The notes under the pieces were generated by a model, which had not been told where the DNA came from, searched no databases, and saw only the letters and a list, made by a program, of their open reading frames with translations. A stretch of DNA of 64,000 nucleotides from Xylophilus sp. GW821-FHT01B05 (GTDB lineage Bacteria > Pseudomonadota > Gammaproteobacteria > Burkholderiales > Burkholderiaceae_C): assembly GCA_038961845.1 (NCBI GenBank), contig CP152408.1, forward strand, positions 2,542,001 through 2,606,000, in the 5' to 3' direction. Shown in pieces: positions 7,422-22,000 of the stretch (positions are counted from its first letter, which is position 1; the number at the start of each line of letters is the position of its first letter). A program made the position numbers and the translations under genes.

Positions 7422-8333
7422 GTGCCCAAGCTCTTTCGCCAGACCCGCAAGCTGCCCACACGCGCAGGCGTGAGCCCGAGCTGTGTCGCGCTGCCTTCCG
7501 GTCCCTGGCCCACGGTGCTGGACTATCTGGCCGAGCGCCTGCCCATCGTCACCCGCGCAGTCTGGACACAGCGCATGGCGCAGGGCGAGGTGGTCGATGA
7601 AAATGGCCAGCCCCTGTCACCCGCCGCGGCCTACCGGCCCCAAAGCCGCGTCTTCTACTACCGTACGCTGGACACCGAGCCGGCGCTGCCCTTCGAGGAA
7701 GAGGTGCTGTATCAGGACGAGCACCTGGTCGTCGCCGACAAACCGCATTTCATGCCCGTGGTGCCCAGTGGCCCCTACCTGCAGCGCAGCCTGCTGGTGC
7801 GCCTGAAGCAGCGCCTGGGCTTGGACACGCTGGCCCCCATGCACCGCATCGACCGCGAGACGGCCGGGCTGGTGCTGTTCTCGGTGCAGCCGCAGCACCG
7901 CGGCGCCTACCAGAGCCTGTTTGCCGAACGCAGCGTAGACAAGGAATACGAGGCCATCGCCCCCTGGCGGCCTGATCTGCAACTGCCCATGACCCTGCGC
8001 CTGCGCATGGCGCCGGCCGAGCAGTTCTTCCGCGAGTGTGTGGTGCCCGGCGAGCCCAACACCGAAACCCGCATCGATTTGCTGGAACAGCAGGACGCGC
8101 TGGCCCGCTACCGCCTGCAGCCGCACACCGGCCGCAAGCACCAACTGCGGGTGCACATGGCGGCGCTGGGCTTGCCCATCCTGAACGACGCCTGGTACCC
8201 CGAGGTCAATGACCCGCCCGAGGGCGACTACTCGCGGCCGTTGCAGTTGCTGGCGCGGGCCGTGGCCTTTACCGACCCGGTGACGGGCGCGCCCAGGCAC
8301 TTTGAGAGCCGGCGGCGCCTGACGGCGTTCTAA
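7422..8333 (+). CDS. RluA-family 23S rRNA/tRNA pseudouridine synthase
   Basis: A 303-residue enzyme starting with GTG at 7422. The N terminus is S4-like (VLDYLAERLP-TRAVW-RMAQGEVV). The catalytic domain carries the RluA signature HRIDRETAGLVLFS, with the catalytic Asp in HRID. The C-terminal RLQPHTGRKHQLRVHMAALGLPI motif is also typical. It isomerises uridine in rRNA or tRNA; the exact site cannot be told from sequence. Its stop codon overlaps by 4 bp the stop of selD on the opposite strand. Confidence 0.88.
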   Translation: MPKLFRQTRKLPTRAGVSPSCVALPSGPWPTVLDYLAERLPIVTRAVWTQRMAQGEVVDENGQPLSPAAAYRPQSRVFYYRTLDTEPALPFEEEVLYQDEHLVVADKPHFMPVVPSGPYLQRSLLVRLKQRLGLDTLAPMHRIDRETAGLVLFSVQPQHRGAYQSLFAERSVDKEYEAIAPWRPDLQLPMTLRLRMAPAEQFFRECVVPGEPNTETRIDLLEQQDALARYRLQPHTGRKHQLRVHMAALGLPILNDAWYPEVNDPPEGDYSRPLQLLARAVAFTDPVTGAPRHFESRRRLTAF

Positions 8334-9385
8334 ACGACCTCCACCCACGCCGGCCCGGCCTGCATCCGCCCCACCAGCGCCGCGCTGGCAAAGCCCTGGC
8401 GTGCGAACAGCTCCAGTACCTGGGCCGCAGCCTCGGGTGCGCAGGCCACCAGCAGGCCGCCCGAGGTCTGCGGATCGGTCAGCAGCGCGCGCAGCGCGGG
8501 CGTGGCCCCGGGCGGCAGCGCCACCGCATCACCGTAAGACGCCCAATTGCGGCCAGACGCACCCGTCGCCACGCCTTGGTCAGCCAGGGCCTGCACGCCC
8601 GGCAGCAGGCGCAGGCGGCGGCTGTCGATCTGCGCTGTAAGGCCCGCTCCGCGGGCCATCTCCAGCGCATGGCCCAGCAGCCCGAAGCCGGTCACATCGG
8701 TCAGCGCATGCACGGCATCCAGTTGCGCCAGCTCCGTGCCCGGCCGGTTGAGCTGGGTGGTGCTGGCAATCAGGGCCGCGTAGCCTTCAGCCGTGAGTTC
8801 GCCTTTCTTCAAGGCGGCCGACAGAATGCCCACGCCCAGCGGCTTGCCCAGGATCAGCACATCACCCGCCTGGGCGGAAGCATTGCGCTTGAGCCGCGCC
8901 GGGTCGACGATGCCGATGCCCACCAGGCCGTAGATAGGCTCCACCGAGTCGATAGAGTGGCCCCCCGCCAGCGGTATGCCCGCCGCGCGGCACACCGACT
9001 CGCCGCCTTCCAGAATCCGCCCAATCACCTCGTGCGGCAACACGTTGATCGGCATGCCGACGATGGCCAGCGCCATCAAGGGCTGGGCGCCCATGGCGTA
9101 GAGATCCGACAGCGCATTGGTCGCGGCAATGCGGCCAAAGTCGAACGGGTCGTCCACGATGGGCATGAAGAAGTCGGTCGTGGCGACGATGGCCTGGCGC
9201 TCGTTGATGCGGTAGACGGCGGCATCGTCGGCGGTCTCCGTCCCCACCAGCAGATCGGGGAAGAACTGCGGCGGCAGGCTGCTGCGGCGCAGCAGATCGG
9301 CCAGTAGCCCCGGCGCGATCTTGCAGCCGCAGCCACCACCGTGCGAGAGCGAGGTCAGCCTAGGGCTAGGGGAGGGATGGACCAT
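8330..9385 (-). CDS. selD: Selenide, water dikinase
   Basis: A 351-residue SelD, which makes selenophosphate from selenide and ATP, the selenium donor for SelA. The N terminus has the catalytic HGGGCGCKIAP, with Cys where some relatives carry selenocysteine and with the essential Lys next to it. Further family marks are TTDFFMPIVDDPFDFGRIAATNALSDLYAMG, with its metal-binding aspartates, and the glycine-rich LTDVTGFGLLGHALEMA. It starts 40 bp after the 3' end of the selenocysteine tRNA gene on the same strand and may be read from the same transcript. It closes the selenium block that begins with fdoG. Confidence 0.97.
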   Translation of the reverse strand: MVHPSPSPRLTSLSHGGGCGCKIAPGLLADLLRRSSLPPQFFPDLLVGTETADDAAVYRINERQAIVATTDFFMPIVDDPFDFGRIAATNALSDLYAMGAQPLMALAIVGMPINVLPHEVIGRILEGGESVCRAAGIPLAGGHSIDSVEPIYGLVGIGIVDPARLKRNASAQAGDVLILGKPLGVGILSAALKKGELTAEGYAALIASTTQLNRPGTELAQLDAVHALTDVTGFGLLGHALEMARGAGLTAQIDSRRLRLLPGVQALADQGVATGASGRNWASYGDAVALPPGATPALRALLTDPQTSGGLLVACAPEAAAQVLELFARQGFASAALVGRMQAGPAWVEVV

Positions 9386-9425
9386 GCAGCGAATCCTTGC
9401 GGGTTCTCACAAACCCAGATGAGGG

Positions 9426-9518
9426 CGGAAGGCAGCAGGAGTCGAACCTACCAGGGAGCGGCTGACGCCCCCTACCGGGTTTGAAGCCCGGGCGCACCAC
9501 CGGGTGCGTATGCCCTCC
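9426..9518 (-). tRNA. selC: Selenocysteine tRNA (anticodon TCA)
   Basis: Read on the minus strand, the 93-nt sequence starts GGAGGGCA and ends TGCCTTCC, giving an 8-bp acceptor stem (one G-U pair) as expected for bacterial tRNA-Sec. The anticodon loop CTTCAAA contains TCA, which decodes UGA. A long variable arm follows (about 9441-9480 on the plus strand), and the T loop is GGTTCGACTCC. The discriminator is G, and only CC of the CCA end appears encoded. It lies upstream of selD and downstream of the selB side of the cluster. Confidence 0.97.
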
Positions 9519-9639: not shown

Positions 9640-10851
9640 CTACATGAAGTTGCGCGTGTGCAGCGCCGCCAGCCGCTCGGCCTGCGCGCGCTCAAAGCCC
9701 AGGCGCACCAGCTTGGCGTAGCGGCCATCTGCCATGTCGCGCATGAGCTGCTGCACCCGCGCATAGCCGCTGGCCACGGCGGCGGGGCTCAGCTCGCCTG
9801 CGGCAATGAGGATGAGCGCGTCAAACACTTCTTCATTCAGGCCGCTGCTGCCGGCCAGCGCATCGTGGCGCTGCTCCACGGCCTGCGCCAGGCGGTGGCG
9901 AAAGGCCGGCTCGCGCTCCAGCCGGTACAGCAGGTGCGACATGCCCAGGGCCACGTGGCGTGCCTCGTCGCGTGCGGCCAGACGGGCGATCTGGCGCGTC
10001 AGCGGGTCAGGTGCGTGCAGTTGCAGAAACTGCAGCAGGTTCACGAAAGTGCCTTCGCCCAGCACTGATAGCAGAAAGCTCGCCACAGAAAAGTCCGGCT
10101 CATCCAGCAGGCTCTTGAGCGAGGCCTGGCCACCAGCGGTGGACAGCGATGGCTCGCCGCCCTTGTGGCGGATGCGGCGTGTGAACACGGCGATGTGCCG
10201 CGCCTCGTCCGCCACCTGGATCGCCAGTGCCGCTTGCAGTTCGCGGTAGTGCGGGTGCAGCTGGCCCAGGAAGCGCGCCGGCACCAGCAGCGCGGCGTTC
10301 TCGTTCTCGACCATGTAGGTCATGAGCTGGACGATGGCCGCCTCCACCGGCGCGGGCAGCTCGAAGGCCACGCTCCAGTCGATGGCCTGGTCCGGGTCCC
10401 ATTGCGCAGCCACGGCCTGGGCGTAGAGGTCGGCGGCGCCGTCGGTCCATAGATCCTGCTTGCGGTCGAGCCTGAAGGCGAAGGGCGGCGAGCCCGCCTC
10501 TACCCGCGCGCCGCGTGCGGCCAGGCCCCAGCCGGGTGCGGCCTGCTCGGCCACTGCACCGTCGGCATGCGGATCGCTGTGGCCAGTGTCGGCCGCACCG
10601 CGCCAGCGGCCGGCCTGCGCGCCGCCGCGCAGCACCTGGGCCCTGCTGTCCACCCATTGCAGCGCATGGCCCTGGCTGCGGCACCAGTCGGCCAACTGCA
10701 CCTGCCAGCCCGGTGCACGGCCTGCCACGCGCAGTACGTCGCCCGGCGCCAGCGCGGCCAGGGCGTGCTTGACCAGCAGGTGCGCCCCGGCGTCAAAGCC
10801 CAAGGCTTCAATATCGATAAGCGGGTTCGGTGATGCGGCCTTGGTCGTCAT
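9640..10851 (-). CDS. TusA-like domain fused to a ferritin-like di-iron domain
   Basis: A 403-residue protein with two parts. Residues about 11-65 resemble the small TusA/SirA sulfur-carrier fold (IDIEALGF-LLVKHALAALAPGDVLRV-WQVQLADWCRSQGHAL), but the catalytic CPxP cysteine is replaced by DAGA. Residues about 150-400 are helical with di-iron ligands in ferritin-like order: E182/E184, E216-xx-H219 (DEARHIAVF), E266 (LGEGTF) and E296-xx-H299 (DEARHVALG). No signal peptide is present, so it should be cytosolic. It overlaps the PhnD-like gene by 44 bp and forms a three-gene unit inside the selenium block. An oxygenase or oxidase role on a sulfur or selenium compound is possible but unproven. Confidence 0.7.
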   Translation of the reverse strand: MTTKAASPNPLIDIEALGFDAGAHLLVKHALAALAPGDVLRVAGRAPGWQVQLADWCRSQGHALQWVDSRAQVLRGGAQAGRWRGAADTGHSDPHADGAVAEQAAPGWGLAARGARVEAGSPPFAFRLDRKQDLWTDGAADLYAQAVAAQWDPDQAIDWSVAFELPAPVEAAIVQLMTYMVENENAALLVPARFLGQLHPHYRELQAALAIQVADEARHIAVFTRRIRHKGGEPSLSTAGGQASLKSLLDEPDFSVASFLLSVLGEGTFVNLLQFLQLHAPDPLTRQIARLAARDEARHVALGMSHLLYRLEREPAFRHRLAQAVEQRHDALAGSSGLNEEVFDALILIAAGELSPAAVASGYARVQQLMRDMADGRYAKLVRLGFERAQAERLAALHTRNFM

Positions 10852-11674
10852 AAAAGCGCTCTTGCGTCACGGCGCGTTCCAGCAGCGCATAGCCGCTGCT
10901 GCGCCCCGGCTGCCAGGCCTTCAGGCCTTCCAGCTCCAGCAGTGGGCGCACGGAGGCATCGCCCCAGTCCATTGCCAGCAGGATCTCGCCAAAGCGCTGC
11001 GCCGCCTCGGCCGGCACGCCGGGGCTCACGGTCATGTTGCAGTGATCGAAGGCGCCCGTAGTGGCCAGGATGCGTGTGCTGCCCGCGGGCAGCGTGCCTT
11101 CATGCGCAAAGGCTCGGTGGTTGCCCGCAATCATCCAGGCCGCATCGATCTGGCCGGCCAGCAGGGCCTGGGCGGCATCGCGCTCGCCGCCGATGTGGTC
11201 GCCATGCTTGCCGCCCAGCACGTCGAAGCGGCGCGCCGTGTAGTCGGGCCCGGCCACCAAGTTGCCTGCGTGGCGCAGATGGTCCAGCGGGATCAGCGTG
11301 GCCTGCGGCGAGTCGATGGCGCCCATGCCCACGGTCTTGCCGCGCAGGCCGGCCAGGTCTTGCACCGGGCTGGCGGCGGGCACTACCAGCACCGAGTGCA
11401 GGTCCATGTCGGTATCGCGCATGGCCAGGGCCTGCACCTGCTGGCCGCGCGCCCGCGCCATGCGATCGGCGCGCACCCAGGCCAGCGGCGAGTTCCAGGC
11501 AAAGGCGATGTCGCCTGCAAACTGGGCCTCTACCTGCGCCTCGTAGTTGGAGTAAAGCAGGTAGTCAAAGGCAAAGCCGCGCTCCGCAAAGTAGGCCTTG
11601 AAGCCTTCCCAGATAGTGACAACCTTGGGCGCGTAGGCCACCGCGCCGAGCATGAGGGGTTGGGGTGTGCTCAT
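10808..11674 (-). CDS. PhnD-like substrate-binding-fold protein without signal peptide
   Basis: A 288-residue protein of the periplasmic binding fold, closest by eye to PhnD-type phosphate/phosphonate-binding proteins. Typical parts are VAYAPKVVTIWEGFKAYF, the hinge segment DLAGLRGKTVGMGAIDSPQATLIPLDHL and the later QALLAGQIDAAWMIAGN. Family members normally begin with a signal peptide or lipobox. This one begins directly with the fold (MSTPQPLMLGAVAYAP), so it should stay in the cytoplasm. No ABC permease or ATPase gene is nearby. It starts 7 bp after the ACAD-like gene and overlaps the next gene, so the three are surely co-translated. The ligand is unknown. Confidence 0.7.
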   Translation of the reverse strand: MSTPQPLMLGAVAYAPKVVTIWEGFKAYFAERGFAFDYLLYSNYEAQVEAQFAGDIAFAWNSPLAWVRADRMARARGQQVQALAMRDTDMDLHSVLVVPAASPVQDLAGLRGKTVGMGAIDSPQATLIPLDHLRHAGNLVAGPDYTARRFDVLGGKHGDHIGGERDAAQALLAGQIDAAWMIAGNHRAFAHEGTLPAGSTRILATTGAFDHCNMTVSPGVPAEAAQRFGEILLAMDWGDASVRPLLELEGLKAWQPGRSSGYALLERAVTQERFYDDQGRITEPAYRY

Positions 11675-11681
11675 GGTCCGC

Positions 11682-12797
11682 TCAACCCAAGGGCATGTCG
11701 CACAGCGCACGGCCAATGAAGTCGTACAGCACGTCCGATGTCGGCGCCATGATCGACGCCGCGCGCGCATCGCGGAACAGGCGCTCTATGCCCACCTCCT
11801 TGCGAAAGGCCGCGCCGCCGCAGATGCGCATGGCGGTGTCGGTTACCTCCAGCGCGGCCTCGGCGGCAGAGGCTTTCACCTCCAGCACGCGCAGCATGGT
11901 GTCGGCGCGGCCGCCGGCCATGGCGGCCAAGGTGTCGTCACGCAGCGCGCGGGCCTGGTCGGTACGGATGCGGGCACGCGCCAGATAGGCGCGGATGGTG
12001 GGCAGATCGGCCAGCGTGCTGTCGCTCTCGGCAAAGCGGCTGGCGGTGATGTGGGCGATGCTGCGCTGCAAGGCACCTTCCATCAGGCCGATGGAGGCCG
12101 AGGCGATCAGCGTGGCAAACACCGGCAGCTCGTCGTTGTTCATGATGTTGCCGCCCTCGCCATCCGCGCCCAGCATGCTGTTGGCCGGCACGCGCAGGTT
12201 CTCGGCGCGCACCGGCGCGGAGTCATTGCCGCGCAGGCCCAGGCCGTCAAAGGGCTGTGGGCGCTGCAGGCCGGGCAGACGGCTGTCCACCAGCCAGAGC
12301 GTGCTCGCGCCCTCGGCCGCAACGGGGCGCGACGACCAGACGTAAGAGTCCGCTTCGCGCGCCGAGGTCACCATGCTCTTGCTGCCATTGAGCACAACGC
12401 TGTCGCCCTCGACCTGCGCCGTACCCACCGGCGCCCAGAAGTGGCTGCGCGTACCGGTCTCGGACCAGGCCAGGGTGGTGATGTGGCGGCCTGCGGCGAT
12501 GGCGCGGCGTATTTCCATGGGGCCGTATTTCTCGACCAGCACGGTGCCGGCGTAGTGCATGGTGAGCACCATGGCGGTGGAGGAACAGTCCTGCGCGATG
12601 CGCTCTACCACCTGCGCCGCCGCAGGCAGGCCCTGGCCCAGGCCGCCGGCCTCCTTGGCGCTGACCAGGCCCAGCAGGCCGGCTTTGCCCAAGGCGTCGA
12701 TGGCGGCGCGCGGAAAGCGCGCTTGCTGGTCGGTGTCGGTGGCGGCCGGTGCAATCGTCGTGCGGACGATGGGCTCCAGAACTTCAAGAAAAGACAT
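11682..12797 (-). CDS. Acyl-CoA-dehydrogenase-fold flavoprotein
   Basis: A 371-residue protein with the ACAD three-domain layout: an N-terminal helical domain with DCSSTAMVLTMHY, a beta domain with the flavin segment TLAWSETGTRSHF and VLNGSKSMVTSA, and a C-terminal helical domain with ICGGAAFRKEVGIERLFRDAR. Where most members have the catalytic Glu (YEGTSE pattern) this protein has MAPTSD, so the usual base is absent; isovaleryl-CoA-type enzymes place it elsewhere, which cannot be excluded. It may be a flavin monooxygenase of the DszC/SfnB kind rather than a dehydrogenase (inference). A good AGGAG box precedes the start. It opens the three-gene cluster between selB and selC. Confidence 0.78.
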   Translation of the reverse strand: MSFLEVLEPIVRTTIAPAATDTDQQARFPRAAIDALGKAGLLGLVSAKEAGGLGQGLPAAAQVVERIAQDCSSTAMVLTMHYAGTVLVEKYGPMEIRRAIAAGRHITTLAWSETGTRSHFWAPVGTAQVEGDSVVLNGSKSMVTSAREADSYVWSSRPVAAEGASTLWLVDSRLPGLQRPQPFDGLGLRGNDSAPVRAENLRVPANSMLGADGEGGNIMNNDELPVFATLIASASIGLMEGALQRSIAHITASRFAESDSTLADLPTIRAYLARARIRTDQARALRDDTLAAMAGGRADTMLRVLEVKASAAEAALEVTDTAMRICGGAAFRKEVGIERLFRDARAASIMAPTSDVLYDFIGRALCDMPLG

Positions 12798-13028: not shown

Positions 13029-14948
13029 CTAAGCCGCCCAGACCGCATCAGGCCGCAGCAGATGCGCATCACGCACGCGCCGCGTGTAGCCCGCACGGTC
13101 GAAAAATTCCAGCACCTGGATAGCGCGCTTGCGGCCCAGGCCGGTCGCATCGCGGAACGCATGCGCCTCGACTTCACCGCGCGGTGCCTGCGCGGCCAGC
13201 TGCGCCACGATGGCCGCAAGCGCTGCTATCTGGTCCGACGCATAGAACAGGTCCTTCACGATCTGGAACACCGCGCCACTGCGTGCCAATTTGCGCAGCA
13301 ACTGGCGCACCGCTTCCTCCGCCGCCTGGTGCTCGCGCGCCAAGTCCCGCACCCAGGGCGGGTCAAAACCGCCAGCCAGCAGCGCCGGCAATACGCGTTC
13401 TGCCAGGGCCTGCTCGGCGGGGTTGAGCGTGACCTGGTGGCCCGGCAAGTGCAGCCAGGCCCCGCTCTGGGCCAGGCTGCCATCGGCCAGCAAGGCCGCC
13501 ACCAACCCGCGCCATAGCGCCGCATGCTCGGCCTGCACCCGACCTGGCAATGCCATGCGCTGCAGCCGTGCAGTGTTCACACCGGGTTCGTCCGGCATGC
13601 GCTCGTGGAAGCGTGTCAGCGTGGCCAGTACCAGGCTGCGCAAGAGCTCCCAGTGAGCCGGTGCGAGCAGCAAGGCATCGTCGCCGCTCAAGGGCAGTGA
13701 AATCAATCCGTCTGGCAATGTGATGTGTTCGGGCGGACGCCCCAGCAGCAGTACCAGCAGCGCGCGTGGCAAGCCGTGTGCGGCACAGGCCAGCAAGGGG
13801 CCAGGGTCGCCTGTCGCCACTGCGGCCTCCAGCGCATCCAGATAGGCCCAGCGCTCGGCACTGCGCCGCTTGCGCGCGGGCGCGAACGGGTCGATCACGC
13901 CGCCACCCGCAATGGTCTGGCTGGCCTGGGCGTTGCGCAGGATCAGGCGATCGCCGGGCAAGGCAAAAACAGGCGTGTCGAACACCAGTTGCACACGCGC
14001 CTGCGCACCAGGCGCCTGGCGCTCGCCCTCCAGCAGGGCCACATGCGCCAGATGGTGCGCAGTCCCCAGATGCACATGCACCGGCGCCCACTGCGTGAGC
14101 GGCGGCGCATCGGGCAGCAGGCGCAGGCGCACGTCGATGCGCTGCGTGGCCTGCAGCGCGCGTGCGTCTGCGATCCAGTCGCCGCGCGCAATCGCCTCGC
14201 GCGCAATGCCCGCCAGGTTCAACGCGCAGCGCTGTCCCGCGCTGCCGGTGGCGCTTTCGCGGTTCTGGGCGTGGATGCTGCGAATGCGCACCGGCGTGCC
14301 GCTGGCGGAATGCAGCAGCGTGTCGCCCACCCGCGCCGTGCCGCCAAACACCGTGCCGGTGACCACCGTGCCTTGGCCGGCGAGCGTGAACACGCGGTCC
14401 ACCGCCAAACGGAACAGGCCGTCGCTTCGGCGTGCCGGCTGGGCCTGCGCCAGGGCGTGCAGATGGGCCCGCAGTGCAGCAACGCCAGCGTCGGCGGGTT
14501 GGGTGGCGGCGGTCTCGAACACCTCGGCCTGGGCCAGCGGCGTGGGCGCGAGCAGCGCCTGCAGCTCTGCACGCACCTGGGTCAGTCGTGCTGGCGGCAC
14601 ACGATCCGCCTTGGTCAGCGCCACCGTGCCCTGCGTGACGCCCAGCAACTCCAGAATGGCCAGATGCTCGCGCGTCTGCGGCATCACGCCATCATCAGCG
14701 GCCACCACCAGCAGCGCATGGTCTATGCCCACGGCGCCCGCGGCCATGGTGTGTACAAACCGCTCATGTCCAGGCACATCGATGATGCCCAGCACGTCGC
14801 CATTGGCCAGTGGCGTGTAGGCGTAGCCCAGCTCGATCGATATGCCACGCGCCTTCTCTTCCTTGAGCCGGTCGGTGTCCACGCCGGTGAGTGCGCGCAC
14901 CAGCGTGGTCTTGCCGTGGTCGATGTGGCCCGCGGTGCCGATGATCAT
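13029..14948 (-). CDS. selB: Selenocysteine-specific elongation factor
   Basis: A 639-residue SelB that carries Sec-tRNA to the ribosome at UGA codons marked by a SECIS hairpin. The N-terminal GTPase has G1 [11 protein letters not shown] (residues 4-14), G3 DVPGHE and the G4 motif TKAD. Two EF-Tu-like beta-barrel domains follow. The C-terminal third forms winged helices (ending [16 protein letters not shown]) that bind the SECIS RNA. Its ATG overlaps the selA stop by 4 bp, so translation is likely coupled. The matching SECIS is in fdoG. Confidence 0.97.
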
Positions 14949-16372
14949 GCCGCTAGCAGCTCCGCCAAGCGCGGCAGTTGCGCAGTGAAGGCGGCTTCGT
15001 CGGCGGCCTCCAGGCAGCGCAGATCGAGCCAGAGCGCGTTGTCGGTGATGCGGCCAATCACCGGGCGGGGCAGGGCGCGCAGCGCTGCCTCCAGCCGAGC
15101 CAACTGACGGCCGCTGCGCTTGCCCTCTGCGGGCCGCAGCGCCAGGCCATGGCTTGGCAACGTATCCACGGGCAGGGCGCCGCTGCCGATCTGGCTGAAC
15201 AGCGGGGTGGCTTCGGCATTGAAGGCCGGGCCAACTGCCTGCTGCACCAGGGCCAGCAAGGCCTCGGCGCGAGCCTGGATCAGCGCCTGCGGCCGGGTCA
15301 GCAGGCGCAGCGTCGTCAGGCGCTCGGCCAGCAGTTCGGGCGCCAGGTACAGGCGCAGCACTGGCTCTAGCGCTGCGAGCGTGAGCTTGCCCACGCGCAG
15401 GGCGCGCTTGAGCGGGTTCTTCTTGATGCCGGCGATCAGGTCTTTGCGGCCCACAATCAGCCCGGCCTGCGGGCCACCCAGCAGCTTGTCGCCGCTGAAG
15501 GTGACCAGATCGGCACCAGCCTCAATCGTCTCGCGCACCGTGGCCTCGTGCGGCAGGCCCCAGCGTGTGAGGTTGACCAGAGTGCCGCTGCCCAGATCCA
15601 CCGCCAGCGGCAAGCCATGCGCATGGGCGATGCGTGCGGCCTCGGCTTCTGCCACATCGCAGGTGAAGCCGGTGACCGCGTAGTTGCTGCAATGCACTTT
15701 CATGAGCAACGCGGTGCGGGCGGTGATGGCCTCTTCATAGTCCCGGGGATGGGTGCGGTTGGTGGTGCCCACCTCGACCAGCTTGGCACCTGCGCGCGCC
15801 ATGATGTCGGGGATGCGGAAGGCGCCGCCGATCTCCACCAACTCGCCGCGCGAAACGATCACTTCCTTGCGCGCCGCCAGCGCATTGAGCGTGAGCAGAA
15901 CGGCCGCCGCATTGTTGTTGACCACGGTGGCGGCCTCGGCGCCGGTCAGCTCGCACAACAGGTCTTCGACCAGGTCATCGCGGTCGCCGCGCCCACCTGT
16001 GTTCAGGTCGAATTCCAGGTTGACCGGTGCCGTAAGCGCCTGCAGCACGGCCTGTACCGCCTCGTCGGGCAGCAGGGCACGGCCCAGGTTGGTGTGCAGC
16101 ACCGTGCCGGTCAGGTTGAACACCGTGCGCAGATGCGGGGCAAAGCGGGCCGCCAGGCGGCGCTCGCAGGCGGCGGCCAGCGCGTCGTCGGCAATGGCCT
16201 GCGGCGTCAGTTCACCGGCCAGGACCGCCGGGCGCAGCACGTCGAATTCGGCGCGCAGGGCATCGGCGACAGCGCTGTGGCCGTAGCGCTCGGCCAGCGT
16301 CTGCAGCGGTGCGGCCGCCAGCACCCGGTCGACCGAGGGCAGGCGCAGGGCTGGGGAGACGGGGCGATCCAT
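14945..16372 (-). CDS. selA: L-seryl-tRNA(Sec) selenium transferase
   Basis: A 475-residue PLP enzyme converting Ser-tRNA(Sec) to Sec-tRNA(Sec) with selenophosphate from SelD. Marks include [16 protein letters not shown], the [16 protein letters not shown] segment and the PLP-lysine motif [13 protein letters not shown] longer frame reaches 16675 but reads through fdhE out of frame, so the start MDRPVSPAL at 16372 is used. It overlaps the fdhE stop (ATCA on the plus strand) and the selB start, giving a tightly coupled fdhE-selA-selB unit. Confidence 0.97.
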
Positions 16373-17331
16373 CAGGCAATCAGTGGTTTCTCTATGGCCA
16401 GTAGCGGGTTGCTGCTGGCGCGCGCAAATTCGGTGTCGCCCATCAGCAGGTCCAGCGTGATGCTGGCCAGGTCGTCGGCCACGGGGTCGACAAACGGGTC
16501 TTGCTCCTGGTTCACCAACTTGCGGTAGGTGTGGCATTGGTCGCAGGTCTCGGCCAGTACGGCATGCCGGGTGTCGGCCTTGCTGGCCGGCTCCGCCTCT
16601 GCACCCTGCACGCCCTGGTAGCGCACGCCCTTGGTGGATTCGCAGTGGCTGCACTTGACGCGCACCATGTGCCACTCGGTGGCGCAGGCGCCGCAGTGCA
16701 GGTAGCGGTGGCCGCCGGCCTCACCGCCGATGCGCAGCACGCTGGCCACAGGCGCGCTGCCGCAGACGGGGCAGATGGTGGCGGGCTCGGCAAAGGGCAC
16801 GTCCTTCACGGACAGCGCGGCGGCGCGGCTGGCAAACCCCACCTGCAGCGCGGCCATGACCAAGGGCGCGGCGGCCAGCTCTTCGCGGCCGATGTTGTCG
16901 GCCAGCACCTGGCGGGCCAACGCGTCGAGGGCAGCATCGTCCAGCGCCGCAAGCTGGGTGAAGACAGGCGACAAGCCGGCGGGCACGGCGGCATCGCCTG
17001 TCAGCTCGGCCAGCAGCGCGCGCAGCGTGTCGTGCCATGCGGCAGGCAGGTTCTGGGATGCCGGCAGCAGCGGCATGCCATGGGCGCTGGCCCGCTGCGC
17101 CACGCCGGCGTCGAGCGGCGCGGGCGTGGGCGCGCGGGATGCCAGGTGCTGCTGTGCCTCGACCAGGCGCGCCGCAAAGCGCAGGTAGTCCGCAATCACA
17201 TGGCCATCCGCCAACTGCCGCAGGCGCGCGGCGCGCTCCTGAAACAGCGTGGCCGGCAGCGGCAGGCGCACGCGCGGAAAGTTGATGTGGTCGAGGGCTT
17301 CGATCTCGCCGGGCTGGAGAATGCGTTGCAC
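16372..17331 (-). CDS. fdhE: Formate dehydrogenase accessory protein FdhE
   Basis: About 319 residues. FdhE is a rubredoxin-like metal-binding chaperone for the Tat-exported formate dehydrogenase. The C-terminal half carries the Cys pairs [23 protein letters not shown] and CDQCHTYRK. The family begins [23 protein letters not shown], which matches a GTG start at 17331 (a TTG at 17337 is the alternative). An ATG at 17397 gives a longer frame, but it would lie upstream of a hairpin terminator at 17361-17389, so it is disfavoured. The gene follows fdoI and overlaps selA by one base. Confidence 0.9.
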
Positions 17332-17360
17332 AGGCAATGTCCAAAATAAAGGAACAGGCC

Positions 17361-17389
17361 GAAGACAAAACGCCGGGGCAAACCCGGCG
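17361..17389 (-). terminator. Intrinsic terminator between fdoI and fdhE
   Basis: On the minus strand CGCCGGG-TTTGC-CCCGGCG is followed by TTTTGTCTTC. It lies just after the fdoI stop. It could lower transcription of fdhE-selA-selB relative to the structural genes. Confidence 0.65.
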
Positions 17390-17412
17390 CTGTGCACTAG
17401 GGAGAGGCCAGT

Positions 17413-18120
17413 TTAGACATCACGCCGCTCTTGCGCCAGCGAGCGTTCACGGTCCACTACCTCGCCATACCACTTTGCATGGTGCTTGCGCGCCCAGGCA
17501 TAGGTCACCCAGCCTTGGGTCATGGCGCGGATGGAGCCCTTGACCCAGATCGCCGCATAGATGTGGACGATGATGGAGCAGATGATGGCAAAGCCGAAGA
17601 ACGCATGCAGCAGCGATGCGGCGCGAACCACGCCAATGGGAAAGAAGTGGCTGAAATACGCCCGCCAGATCACCAGCCCGGTGAGCAACAAGCCCAGCAT
17701 GCAGCCCAACAATACCCAGAACAAAATCTTCTGCCCGGCGTTGTAGCGGCTGATGGGCGGCAGCTTTTCTTCGCGGTTGGTGAGCACGTCGCCGATCTGG
17801 CGCATCCACTGCACGTCGTTCTGCTCCAGGAAGTTGTGGCGCCAGAAACGCAGCACCAGCAGCATGAACGACATGAACATCACCAGGCCTATGAACGGAT
17901 GCAGGATGCGCGTCCACGGCCCGCCGCCAAAGAGGGCGGTAAGCCAGAACATGGCCGGATGGAACAGCGCCAGGCCCGACAGCGTCAGCAGCACAAAGCA
18001 GATGGCGGTGATCCAGTGGTTGCTGCGCTCGTTGGGCGTATAGCGCTGGATCACCGGCTGGTCGTGCATGGTGGCAAAGTCGCGGGCAGTGGGGCGTTCA
18101 GCCTCGTGGGTGCTGCTCAT
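17413..18120 (-). CDS. fdoI: Formate dehydrogenase cytochrome b556 subunit (gamma)
   Basis: A 235-residue inner-membrane subunit with four membrane helices that anchors the enzyme and passes electrons to quinone. Helix histidines in [28 protein letters not shown] and [23 protein letters not shown] are the expected haem b ligands. A perfect AGGAGG box precedes the ATG at 18120. A longer frame reaching 18243 overlaps fdoH and is rejected. The true start still overlaps the fdoH 3' end by 23 bp. The sequence is of the FdnI/FdoI type. Confidence 0.93.
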
Positions 18121-19081
18121 GGCGAGCCTCCTGCTGGTGAACCTGGGCCAGTGGATTGGTGTCCACACCCGCATCCTCGCGGCGTTCGATGGCCTCGTCA
18201 TTGGCATCGTCTTCCTCGTGCTCGTTGGTCTCGTTGGGGCCAACGCGCGTGTAGTGGAAGAAGCCGGCCAGGGCAGTCAGTGCGATGCCGGCCAGCGCCA
18301 GCGGCTTGGCTGCGCCCTTCCAGAAGCTGACCATCGGACTGATCTTCGGGTTGTCGGGCAGGCCGTGGTAAAGCGAGGGCTTGTCGGCGTGGTGCAGCAC
18401 GTACATCACATGGGTGCCGCCCACGCCGGCCGGGTCGTAGAGCCCGGCCTTGGCAAAGCCACGCTCCTTCAGGTCTTCGATGCGCTCCTCGGCCTGGTCC
18501 TTCATGGCCTGCTTGGTGCCGAACATGATGGCGCCTGTGGGGCAGGTCTTGACGCAGGCCGGCTCCTGCCCCACGCCCACGCGGTCTGAGCACAGGGTGC
18601 ATTTGTAGGCCTTGTGGTCCTTTTTGGAGATGCGCGGTACATCGAACGGGCAGCCGCTCACGCAGTAGCCGCAGCCTATGCAGTTCTCTTCGTGGAAATC
18701 CACGATGCCATTGGTGTACTGCACGATGGCGCCAGGCGAGGGGCAGGCCTTGAGACAACCCGGGTCCTCGCAGTGCATGCAGCCGTCCTTGCGGATCAGC
18801 CATTCGAGGTTGCCGCTTTCCTCGTTCTCGTACTCGGAGAAGCGCATCACCGTCCACGAGTGCTCGGTCAGGTCCGTCGGGTTGTCGTAGACGCCGCTGG
18901 TGGTGCCGACCTCATCGCGCAGATCGTTCCACTCCATGCACGCCGTCTGGCAGGCCTTGCAGCCTATGCACTTGGAGACATCGATCAGCTTGGCCACCTC
19001 GCCCGATGCCGGCGCGCGCACGCTGGGCGAGGGCAGGGTGGTGGCAGAGCGGCGCTTGATATCCAGGGATTGCAGGGACAT
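18098..19081 (-). CDS. fdoH: Formate dehydrogenase iron-sulfur subunit (beta)
   Basis: A 327-residue ferredoxin-like subunit with four [4Fe-4S] cysteine groups: [37 protein letters not shown] and CTLCSDR-CVKTCP. A single membrane helix near the C terminus ([17 protein letters not shown]) anchors it. It transfers electrons from the selenoprotein subunit to the cytochrome b. An AAGGAGG site stands before the ATG, within the end of fdoG. The acidic tail after the helix ([18 protein letters not shown]) is longer than in the E. coli protein. Confidence 0.95.
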
Positions 19082-19090
19082 ACGGCCTCC

Positions 19091-22000
19091 TTAGACCTTC
19101 TCGACCTTCACCAGGAAGGTCTTGAATTCCGGCGTATTGGTATTGCCGTCGCCCACAAAAGGCGTGAGCGTGTTGGCGATAAACCCGGGTTTGGTCACGC
19201 CCTTGAAACCCCAGTGGATGGGCACGCCCACGTGGTGCACCGTGCGGCCCTCGATGGTCATGGGCTTGATGCGTTTGGTCACCACCGCCACCGCCTTGAT
19301 ATAGCCGCGCTTGGAAGACACCTTCACCCAGTCGCCGGCCTTGATGCCCAGGGACTGCGCCAGCACCTCGCCAATCTCCACGAATTGCTCGGGCTGGGTG
19401 ATGGCGTTGAGCAGTGCGTGCTTGGTCCAGTAGTGGAAGTGCTCGGTCAGCCGGTAGGTGGTACCCACGTGCGGGAACTCTGCGGCCGTGCCAAAGCTCT
19501 CCCACACGTTCTTGAACACCCGGGCCGCCGGCGAGCTGGTCGCCACCTTGTTGTTGGGGTGCATGGGGTTGTAGCCCAGCGGCGTGTCGAAGGGCTCGTA
19601 GTGCTCGGGGAAGGGCCCCTCGTTCAGCCCCTTGCGCGCGAAGAAGCGCGCCACGCCCTCGGGGTTCATGATGAAGGGCCCGGCGCCCGCGTCTGGCGCG
19701 GAGGTAATGACAAAGTCGGGCACGTCCGCGCCAGTCCAGGCGCTGCCGTTCCAGCCGATCACCCGGCGCTTGGGGTTGAACGGTTTGCCCGCCACATCGC
19801 AGGAGGCGCGGTTGTACAGAATGCGGCGGTTGGCCGGCCAAGCCCAGGCCCAGTTCAGGGTGTTGCCTATGCCGGTTGGGTCGGCGTTGTCGCGCCGCCC
19901 CATCTGGTTGCCGGCCTGGGTCCAGGCGCCGGCAAAGATCCAGCAACCGCTGGCCGTCGTGCCGTCATCGCGCAGCTCGCCAAAGCCGGATATCTGTTCG
20001 CCGCCCTTGCGCAGCACCTTGGTCGGGTCTTTCGGGTCCAGCAAATCCACTAGGGCACGGCCGTTGTATTCCTTGGCAATCTCCTCGGGTGTGGCCTCTC
20101 CTGCATGCGCATAGGGCCAGGACAGCTTGAGCATCGGGTCCGGGTACTTGCCGCCTTCCTTCTGATAAAGCTCACGCATGCGCAGGTACAGGCCCGACAT
20201 GATCGAGATGTCGGTGCGGGCCTGCCCCGGCGGCTCGGCGGCCTTCCAGTGCCACTGCAGCACGCGGGAAGAACTCACCACGGAGCCTTCCTCTTCCGCA
20301 AAACAGGTGGTCGGCAGGCGGAACACCTCGGTCTGGATCTGGCTGGCATCAACGTCGTTGTATTCGCCGTAGTTCTTCCAGAACTCCGATGTTTCGGTAG
20401 CCAACGGGTCCATGATGACCAGGAACTTGAGCTTGCCAAGGCCATTGCGCACGCGGTTCTTGTCGGCCAGCGCCGCCAGCGGGTTGAAGCCTTGCGCCAG
20501 ATAGCCGTTGACCTTGCCCTGGTCCATCAGCTCGAAGATCTGCAGCATGTCGTACTGCTTGTCGAGCTTGGGCAGAAAGTCATAGCCCCAGTTGTTCTCG
20601 GCCGTGGCATTGGCGCCGTACCAGGACTTCATCAGGCTGACGTGGAACTTCGGGTAGTTCTGCCAGTAGCTCACCTGGCCCGGGCGCAGCGGTTTTTGCG
20701 TGCGTGAAGTGATGTACTGCTGGTAGTCCTGCTCGCCCTCGTTGGGCATGGTCAGGTAGCCCGGCAGGCTGGCCGACAGCAGGCCCAGGTCAGTCAACCC
20801 CTGGATGTTGGAGTGGCCGCGCAGCGCATTCATGCCGCCTCCCGCCACGCCGATATTGCCCAGCAGCAACTGCACCATGGCACCCGTGCGCAGCATCTGC
20901 GCGCCGATGGAGTGCTGGGTCCAGCCCAGCGCATACATGATGGTGGCGGCCCGGCCGGGCACGGCGGTGGAGGCAAGTTTCTCGCACACGTGCAGGAACT
21001 TGGCCTTGGGCGTACCGCAGATGCTCTCGACCTTCTCGGGCGTGTAGCGGGCGTAATGTTGCTTCATCAACTGGTAGACACAACGCGGGTGCTGCAAGGT
21101 GGCATCGACCTTGGCAAAGCCGTCTTCGCCCAGCTCGTAGTCCCAGCTGGCCTTGTCGTAAGTGCGTTTTTCGGCGTTGTAGCCCGAGTACAGCCCGTCT
21201 TCGAAGCTGTAATCCTCGCGCACGATGAAGGCGAAGTCGGTGTAGTTCCGGACGTACTCGTGGTGGATCTTGTCGTTGGTCAGCAGGTAGTTGATGACCC
21301 CGCCAAGAAAGGCGATGTCGCTGCCGGAACGGATCGGCGCATAGAAGTCAGCCACCGACGCCGAGCGGTTGAAGCGCGGGTCCACCACCATGAAGTGTGC
21401 CTTGTTATGCGCCTTGGCCTCGGTCACCCACTTGAAGCCGCAGGGGTGGGCTTCGGCGGCATTGCCGCCCATGATCAAGATAACGTCCGCGTTCCTGATG
21501 TCCACCCAATGGTTGGTCATCGCTCCTCGGCCAAACGTCGGGGCAAGACCTGCCACCGTCGGGCCGTGTCAGACACGGGCTTGGTTGTCGAATGCGAGCA
21601 GTCCCCAGCTACGGGCGATCTTGTGGGTGATATAGCCGGCTTCGCTGCTGCTGGCAGAGGCCGCCAGCATGCCGGTGGTGAGCCAGCGGTTGACGGTCAG
21701 GCCCTCGGGGGTCTTCTCGACAAAGTTGGCGTCACGGTCGGCCTTCATCAGGCGGGCGATGCGGTCCAGCGCGTCGTCCCAGGAGATGCGCTGCCACTCG
21801 CTGGAGCCCGGCGCGCGGTACTCGGGGTAGAGCAGGCGGTTGGGGCTGTTGATGAAGTCCAGCAGGCTCGCCCCCTTGGGGCAGAGGGTGCCGCGGTTGA
21901 CCGGGTGGTCCGGATCGCCCTCGACGTGTACCACCGAGGGCTTGGCGTTCTTGGCGCCATCGCCCAGCGAGTACATCAGGATGCCGCAGCCAACCGAGCA

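Follow-up and report, generated by a model that had tools for sequence, protein, structure and literature searches.

Background

Several described systems resemble parts of the locus reported here. Actinobacterial clusters of the Rv1678-Rv1681 type (families NF049986, NF049984, NF049985 and NF049973) encode a protein of the acyl-CoA dehydrogenase (ACAD) fold adjacent to a leaderless substrate-binding protein (SBP), with radical SAM and DoxX-like partners. The 3-sulfinopropionyl-CoA desulfinase (structures 5af7 and 5ahs) also has the ACAD fold without the Glu of the YEG motif, and performs a non-redox C-S cleavage (PMC8360864, PMC6370202). Two comparative-genomics papers on selenium name SirA-like, YedE, YedF and DUF3343 proteins, and describe a TusA-fold protein that is tied genetically to selD, beside other selD-linked accessory genes (PMC2432076, PMC5322559). 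Here we describe a three-gene cassette from Xylophilus sp. GW821-FHT01B05 (contig CP152408.1, positions 2,542,001 to 2,606,000 of the forward strand; this stretch of 64,000 nucleotides is called the window below), which encodes an ACAD-fold flavoprotein, a PhnD/PtxB-fold protein and a TusA-like domain fused to a ferritin-like di-iron domain. The cassette is one unit, and we consider its link to selenium very probable.

Results

The three genes form one unit

The cassette lies on the minus strand of the window. Gene 1 (11682..12797; open reading frame (ORF) 12797-11682) encodes the ACAD-fold flavoprotein of 371 aa, gene 2 (10808..11674) the PhnD/PtxB-fold protein of 288 aa, called the SBP below, and gene 3 (9640..10851) the TusA-like/di-iron fusion of 403 aa, called G3. 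A longer middle ORF runs from 11770 to 10808 on the same strand, and its likely start is the ATG at 11674; given this start, the gap between gene 1 and the SBP gene is 7 bp (11675-11681), and the SBP and G3 genes overlap by 44 bp (10808-10851). The genes for the alpha, beta and gamma subunits of formate dehydrogenase, fdhE, selA and selB lie upstream of the triplet, and selC and selD downstream. The initial annotation had drawn the same unit between selB and selC-selD with the same gap and overlap, and its coordinates agree to the base.

To follow the unit in other species, relatives were sought with two SBP peptide patterns; the best 80 of the 238 obtained were used as loci, a set in which distant forms are under-sampled. 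All three genes occurred together in 75 of the 80 loci; the exceptions were L085 and L106, with no ACAD match over the filter, and L109, L113 and L130, which are cut by contig ends. The G3 match was weak inside a long contig in L085 and L090, and weak or partial at contig ends in L104, L128, L140 and L143. The SBP and G3 frames overlapped in 61 of the 72 loci in which both starts could be placed, by 44 nt in 28 of them, with start placement leaning towards the start used in the window. Since the genes recur together in so many loci and their frames overlap so often, their association is more than chance, and we concluded that the triplet is one unit. In tblastn alignments of more than 45% identity (98 SBP, 96 ACAD and 95 G3 loci), no in-frame stop was found, and the idea that one of the three is a selenoprotein in relatives was dropped. 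Two loci differ in structure: in L044 (9466-10807, genome G560) G3 is broken into frame-shifted pieces, with ACAD and SBP genes that look intact, and in L116 (Lampropedia puyangensis) two ACAD copies flank an SBP-G3 pair, followed by selD.

An empty site was found in a genome of the same genus (G419, locus L197), where the formate dehydrogenase genes, fdhE, selA, selB, selC and selD stand in the order of the window with no cassette. Over the aligned stretches its selB and selD are 85-86% and its selC 100% identical to those of the window, and 207 bp lie between selB and selC. In five further cassette-less relatives (L198 to L202) the tRNA-Sec gene is less than 200 bp from selB.

The cassette is rare. 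A G3 match was obtained in 18 of 399 genomes of the family (a sample that overlaps in part with the 80 loci), and the carriers fall in 13 of 141 genera. Among 274 genomes of the class there were two matches, the window's own genome and G120; the latter was rejected, because its protein is a stand-alone di-iron protein, 32% identical and matched outside the TusA-like part, and because the other two genes are absent from the 20 kb around the match. The SBP profile at E 1e-20 matched 5 of 364 genomes of the phylum, namely the window's genome, one family carrier, two genomes with a radical SAM form of the cluster, and one congener, in which the match is weak, lies near selD and corresponds to an SBP-like ORF scoring only 60 bits against the SBP of the window.

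Carriers within the family have SelA, SelB and SelD

In the family sample, SelB passed the cut-off in 105 of 399 genomes, including 15 of the 18 carriers, and the remaining three carriers have a SelB that is 66% identical to that of the window. SelB was thus present in 18 of 18 carriers against about 109 of 399 genomes in the sample (Fisher exact P = 2.4e-11; P = 3.6e-7 when only strict cut-off passes are counted), and G3 was found in 0 of the 290 genomes without detected SelB; the SelB re-test covered six genomes and rescued one non-carrier too, and SelB may have been missed in a few others of the 290. The cassette therefore occurs together with sel genes more often than expected. SelA and SelD were likewise present in 18 of 18 carriers (each search found its protein in 20 of the 21 genomes examined). 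Because the genomes are related, the comparison was also made within genera: over the 12 genera that hold carriers and are represented by at least two genomes (one single-genome genus being dropped, and labels transferred by hand), SelB was present in all 17 carriers and in 20 of the 39 non-carriers, and the product of the exact probabilities was 5.3e-4.

The tie to selenium suggested by the initial annotation thus holds for SelA and SelB co-occurrence in the family and for the repeated and varied sel neighbourhoods described below. The part of it that leaned on SelD does not carry over: SelD is present in 363 of the 399 family genomes, and being near-universal its co-occurrence is no test of the link, so that we rejected it as proof.

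The cassette stands beside sel genes in several arrangements

At least one of selA, selB and selD lies within 10 kb of the cassette in 29 of the 80 loci, and in 25 of the 59 loci that have at least 6 kb of sequence on both sides. Five gene orders were seen at these sel-adjacent loci: selA-selB-cassette (5 loci and the window), selA-cassette-selB (15 loci), cassette-selD (5 loci), Lampropedia orders that end in selD (2 loci), and a Luteimonas order with selD-selB-selA on the other strand (2 loci). Among the family carriers, window included, sel genes were found near the cassette in 13 of 18 (retrieved stretches of at most 20 kb, in one genome divided between two contigs). By rough estimate, not computed, about 1% of random 20-kb stretches in a genome of 6 Mb would contain a sel gene. 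When the label "sel-adjacent" was placed on an SBP tree with 79 labelled rows (three of the 80 loci, whose SBP has no copy of the trimming motif, were left out), it required 6 changes, which means that the 29 loci represent a handful of events, far fewer than 29.

The same habit was found in another phylum. On a plasmid of the actinobacterium Miltoncostaea oceani (L187), an ACAD-SBP pair lies about 6 kb from selD-selA-selB; its SBP and ACAD proteins are 61% and 51% identical to those of the window, respectively. A search for G3 on this plasmid gave no match, and the pair is followed by a DUF2515 gene and a radical SAM/SPASM gene.

Some sel-region loci showed features of their own. A genome of the window's genus (G632, L203 9989-12932) has, apart from its formate dehydrogenase-sel cluster, a second selB of diverged sequence that is accompanied by a tRNA-Sec gene of its own. 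In L035 (1929-4973, G296) an ORF of 1014 aa without an NCBIfam match at E 1e-10 stands between selA and selB. In L032 (12853-14145) and L033 (5570-6862), both of one genus, the cassette adjoins a flavoprotein of 430 aa that is weakly like sulfide:quinone reductases (NF049943, 93-95 bits, cut-off 525).

Solitary units and carriers without SelA

For 51 loci no sel gene was in range. Their commonest non-sel neighbour cluster, by eye a transporter ATPase, occurs in only 7 of the 51, and a recurrent non-selenium partner was accordingly rejected. The genome tables for these solitary units cover 50 genomes, with L094 left out. SelA was found in 27 of the 50 genomes and not in the other 23, which shows that the cassette does not need selenocysteine, and a role as a strict selenocysteine accessory was discarded. 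Of the 23 carriers without SelA, 19 have SelD, and 18 of these 19 have SelU. In four SelA-less genomes, chosen among 15 selD loci by the look of the gene beside selD, NCBIfam names that gene SenB (selenoneine synthesis). The presence of SelD and SelU in most SelA-less carriers makes supply to a selenium pool a better fit than Sec insertion, with exceptions possible; in the window's family, however, the cassette keeps to genomes with SelB.

A gene for the SBP of a putative selenate ABC transporter lies about 3-4 kb from the cassette in 11 of the 80 loci (L119, L125, L126, L129, L131, L132, L135, L138, L141, L147 and L148), and all of them except L148 also have selU at a distance of about 6-8 kb. 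In a 1.5-Mb Gallionellaceae bin with a solitary unit, a sequence partially matching the same putative selenate-transporter family was found at 11 bp from G3. Both observations favour supply over Sec insertion.

The folds are kept and the hallmark residues are replaced

The three families named in the initial annotation were recovered: gene 1 matches the ACAD families PF00441, PF02771 and PF02770, the SBP matches Phosphonate-bd (PF12974, 104 bits), and the structure model of G3 has a TusA-like domain and a helical bundle. Its statement that nothing in these families explains their placement needs a qualification: the first two genes are akin to the named, uncharacterised families of Rv1679 and Rv1680 (NF049984 and NF049985), against which they score 362.5 and 222.1 bits, under the curated cut-offs of 600 and 400.

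In gene 1 the YEG motif of the dehydrogenases, which holds the catalytic Glu, is replaced by MAP; M350 and P352 are invariant in 24 aligned rows, and A351 is present in at least 90% of them. An ordinary ACAD identity was rejected because this Glu is absent. The desulfinase structures 5af7 and 5ahs are among the matches of gene 1, and its score against the desulfinase family NF042439 is 93.8 bits.

The SBP has the PhnD/PtxB fold, and its nearest folds are binders of phosphite, hypophosphite, arsenate and phosphonate. The absence of a signal peptide, claimed earlier, stands: no leader is seen by eye (no signal-peptide program was run), and in the model the first domain strand is predicted at residues 7-12, so that the domain would begin with the protein itself. 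Its gene neighbours are ACAD, G3, selB and selC, with no ABC partner genes. The STS-H oxygen-binding motif and the D/Y cap, as defined in PMC5700983, are replaced by S122-P123-Q124 and H211-C212, and the motif His aligns with R165 (PhnD row) or E164 (PtxB row). The protein also carries an invariant loop with KHGDH, in addition to His211-Cys212. The SBP therefore differs from the periplasmic PtxB, PhnD and HtxB proteins and from the SBP of the putative selenate ABC transporter (TIGR04553) in having no visible leader, no adjoining permease or ATPase gene, replaced STS and cap residues, and an extra invariant loop; a PhnD-type transporter identity was rejected for lack of the hallmark residues.

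G3 scores 24.7 bits against AurF and 20.4 bits against TusA, both under the cut-off of the Pfam copy used, although AurF is assigned to it in a precomputed Pfam annotation. In the model, a beta-alpha-beta-alpha-beta-beta domain (residues 11-74) is predicted before the helical bundle. The di-iron ligand pattern E, ExxH, E, ExxH is present, with E182/E184, E216-H219, E266 and E296-H299 invariant in 46 rows, and from these ligands G3 is predicted to bind a di-iron centre. The protein is nearest to VlmB, aldehyde-deformylating oxygenases and R2lox; unlike these and AurF, it has a TusA-like N-terminal fusion, and its AurF match is sub-threshold. The Cys of the TusA CPxP motif is replaced by A, Q or E in 14 rows (the site was placed by eye, outside the Pfam match), and a sulfur-carrier identity was rejected on this ground. 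A different Cys, C57, is nearly invariant in the TusA-like domain. YedF, by contrast, keeps CPxP and has a DsrE-like domain, whereas G3 has the di-iron domain instead.

Among the Rv1678-Rv1681-type clusters, a Mycolicibacterium relative has, like the window, lost the ACAD Glu and kept the KHGD loop and the His-Cys pair in the SBP. The radical SAM partner of the Mycolicibacterium set, which two genomes from the phylum of the window also have, is not present in the window, where G3 takes that place. The two same-phylum loci (L194 and L195) have DoxX-like, ACAD, SBP and Rv1681-like radical SAM genes; a TIGR04282 (arsenosugar-type) gene is close by in L195, and a TIGR04282-like one also occurs in Miltoncostaea.

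The word "acyl-CoA" does not occur in the main texts of PMC2432076 and PMC5322559, nor "ferritin" and "phosphonate" in that of PMC5322559. Literature searches by gene names and their combinations gave no title describing the unit among the matches listed (subscription papers and preprints not covered). Every known family tested fails at least one defining test, apart from the bare di-iron fold, and the function of the cassette is inferred.

Neighbouring genes in the window

All neighbouring genes lie on the minus strand as well. On the upstream side, selB occupies 13029..14948 (TIGR00475, 444 bits), and selA, recognized by a family-model match, lies in the ORF 14945..16675; as the SelA match begins at residue 111, the true start is probably inside this ORF. 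It is preceded by fdhE (16372..17397, family-model match) and by the formate dehydrogenase genes for the gamma subunit (fdoI, 17413..18243; TIGR01583, 213 bits), the beta subunit (fdoH, 18098..19081; TIGR01582, 458 bits) and the formate dehydrogenase-N-type alpha subunit (fdoG, 19091..21556; TIGR01553, 1191 bits). The listed fdoG ORF matches its family only from profile position 201 on, and a bacterial selenocysteine insertion sequence (SECIS_3, 21516..21574, 79.2 bits) sits at its start, so the selenoprotein frame must extend upstream through the Sec codon. On the downstream side are selC, the tRNA-Sec gene (9424..9518), and selD (8330..9385; TIGR00476, 427 bits).

Discussion

A di-iron oxygenase, a base-less ACAD akin to a C-S lyase and a leaderless oxyanion-binding fold together suggest oxidation, capture and cleavage of an organoselenium compound. 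We tentatively favour, as a possibility, an oxidative pathway in the cytosol that would release selenium from an organic compound and so supply SelD, and the initial annotation's guess of an oxidative, cytosolic pathway feeding the selenophosphate pool fits such a scheme. G3 would use O2 to oxidise the organoselenium substrate to a seleninate-like oxyanion, with its TusA-like domain, lacking the active-site Cys, serving only to dock it to a partner. The leaderless PhnD-fold protein, with its re-modelled cleft, would hold this oxyanion or else the selenium once it is released, and the ACAD-fold protein, without a proton-abstracting Glu, would cleave the C-Se bond by analogy with the desulfinase, which cleaves C-S and releases sulfite. 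The freed selenium would then be reduced and passed to SelD. A fuller scenario, which we regard as unlikely, has the fold of a phosphite receptor adapted as a selenium carrier or enzyme of the cytosol (with the His-Cys cap and the KHGDH loop), working with a base-less ACAD C-Se lyase and a TusA-docked di-iron oxygenase, as a portable module that joined the sel operons of Burkholderiales, Luteimonas and an actinobacterium separately, a radical SAM protein perhaps replacing the oxygenase in the last.

Several observations weigh against the release of selenium for SelD. Within the family the cassette follows SelB: it was found in none of the 290 genomes in which SelB went undetected, most of which have SelD, a pattern that is odd for a general supply to SelD. 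The desulfinase score of gene 1 is far under the family cut-off (94 against 600), and this score and the selenium neighbourhood set gene 1 apart from the desulfinase. When the neighbours of the 51 solitary loci were clustered, neither a flavin reductase nor a CoA-activating partner recurred (no family model for them was applied), and the near-invariant C57 may leave room for a chemical role of the TusA-like domain. The Mycolicibacterium set and the two same-phylum sets have no sel gene in the stretches examined, and the core chemistry may not be selenium-specific. Finally, in 4 of the 50 solitary-unit genomes, three metagenome-assembled genomes and a fragmented draft of Ideonella azotifigens, neither SelA, SelD nor SelU was detected; one of the metagenome-assembled genomes is the Gallionellaceae bin with the partial selenate-transporter match beside G3.

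Other explanations have to be considered against the same evidence. The cassette may act downstream of SelD and turn selenophosphate into an undescribed selenium-containing small molecule or cofactor, for which its closeness to selD in several arrangements (6 kb in the actinobacterium) and its presence in SelA-less genomes with SelD would speak. Leaderless SBP-fold proteins are of a type used in biosynthesis, as are base-less ACAD folds and VlmB/AurF-like oxygenases. We consider this unlikely, however, since with a separate metabolite one would not expect the embedding between selA and selB or, among the family genomes, the restriction to those with SelB, and no partner gene recurs among the solitary loci. 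Rather less likely is that the PhnD-fold protein is a cytosolic carrier of selenophosphate, which the two oxidoreductases only serve or regenerate: its nearest folds bind X-PO3 anions (phosphite, methylphosphonate), and the cap position facing the non-oxygen group is Cys212, beside His211, but Pro and Gln occupy two of the three STS positions, and the Mycolicibacterium relative keeps His-Cys with nothing here showing selenium use.

The remaining two explanations place the function outside selenium handling itself. Formate dehydrogenase genes and fdhE precede many of the copies, one Paraburkholderia copy (L087) follows fdhE with no sel gene within 10 kb, and the alpha-subunit gene of the window has a SECIS, all of which would suit a protein set that matures or protects selenocysteine formate dehydrogenase. 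Yet the Xenophilus, Lampropedia and Miltoncostaea copies stand by selD or other sel genes in stretches where no formate dehydrogenase gene was seen, and SelA-less carriers exist, which makes this role improbable. We give slightly less credence still to a portable cassette for an unrelated oxidation that is found in sel regions for other reasons; the varied neighbours of the solitary copies, the 23 of 50 solitary-unit genomes without SelA and the relatives without sel neighbours would agree with it, whereas the occurrence beside different sel genes in five orders, the recurrence near sel genes in a second phylum, the lack of any other neighbour that recurs widely and the association with SelB inside genera argue against it.

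To our knowledge, the bacterial source of the reduced selenium used by SelD, and the parent compounds from which it comes, are still open questions. Since all three proteins keep their folds and have lost the residues that define the activities of their families, a new chemistry is plausible. As the cassette is compact, with three genes, and a relative in the same genus has the empty site, its role is directly testable by deletion, and the Rv1679 and Rv1680 families, which are also without a function, would gain a lead.

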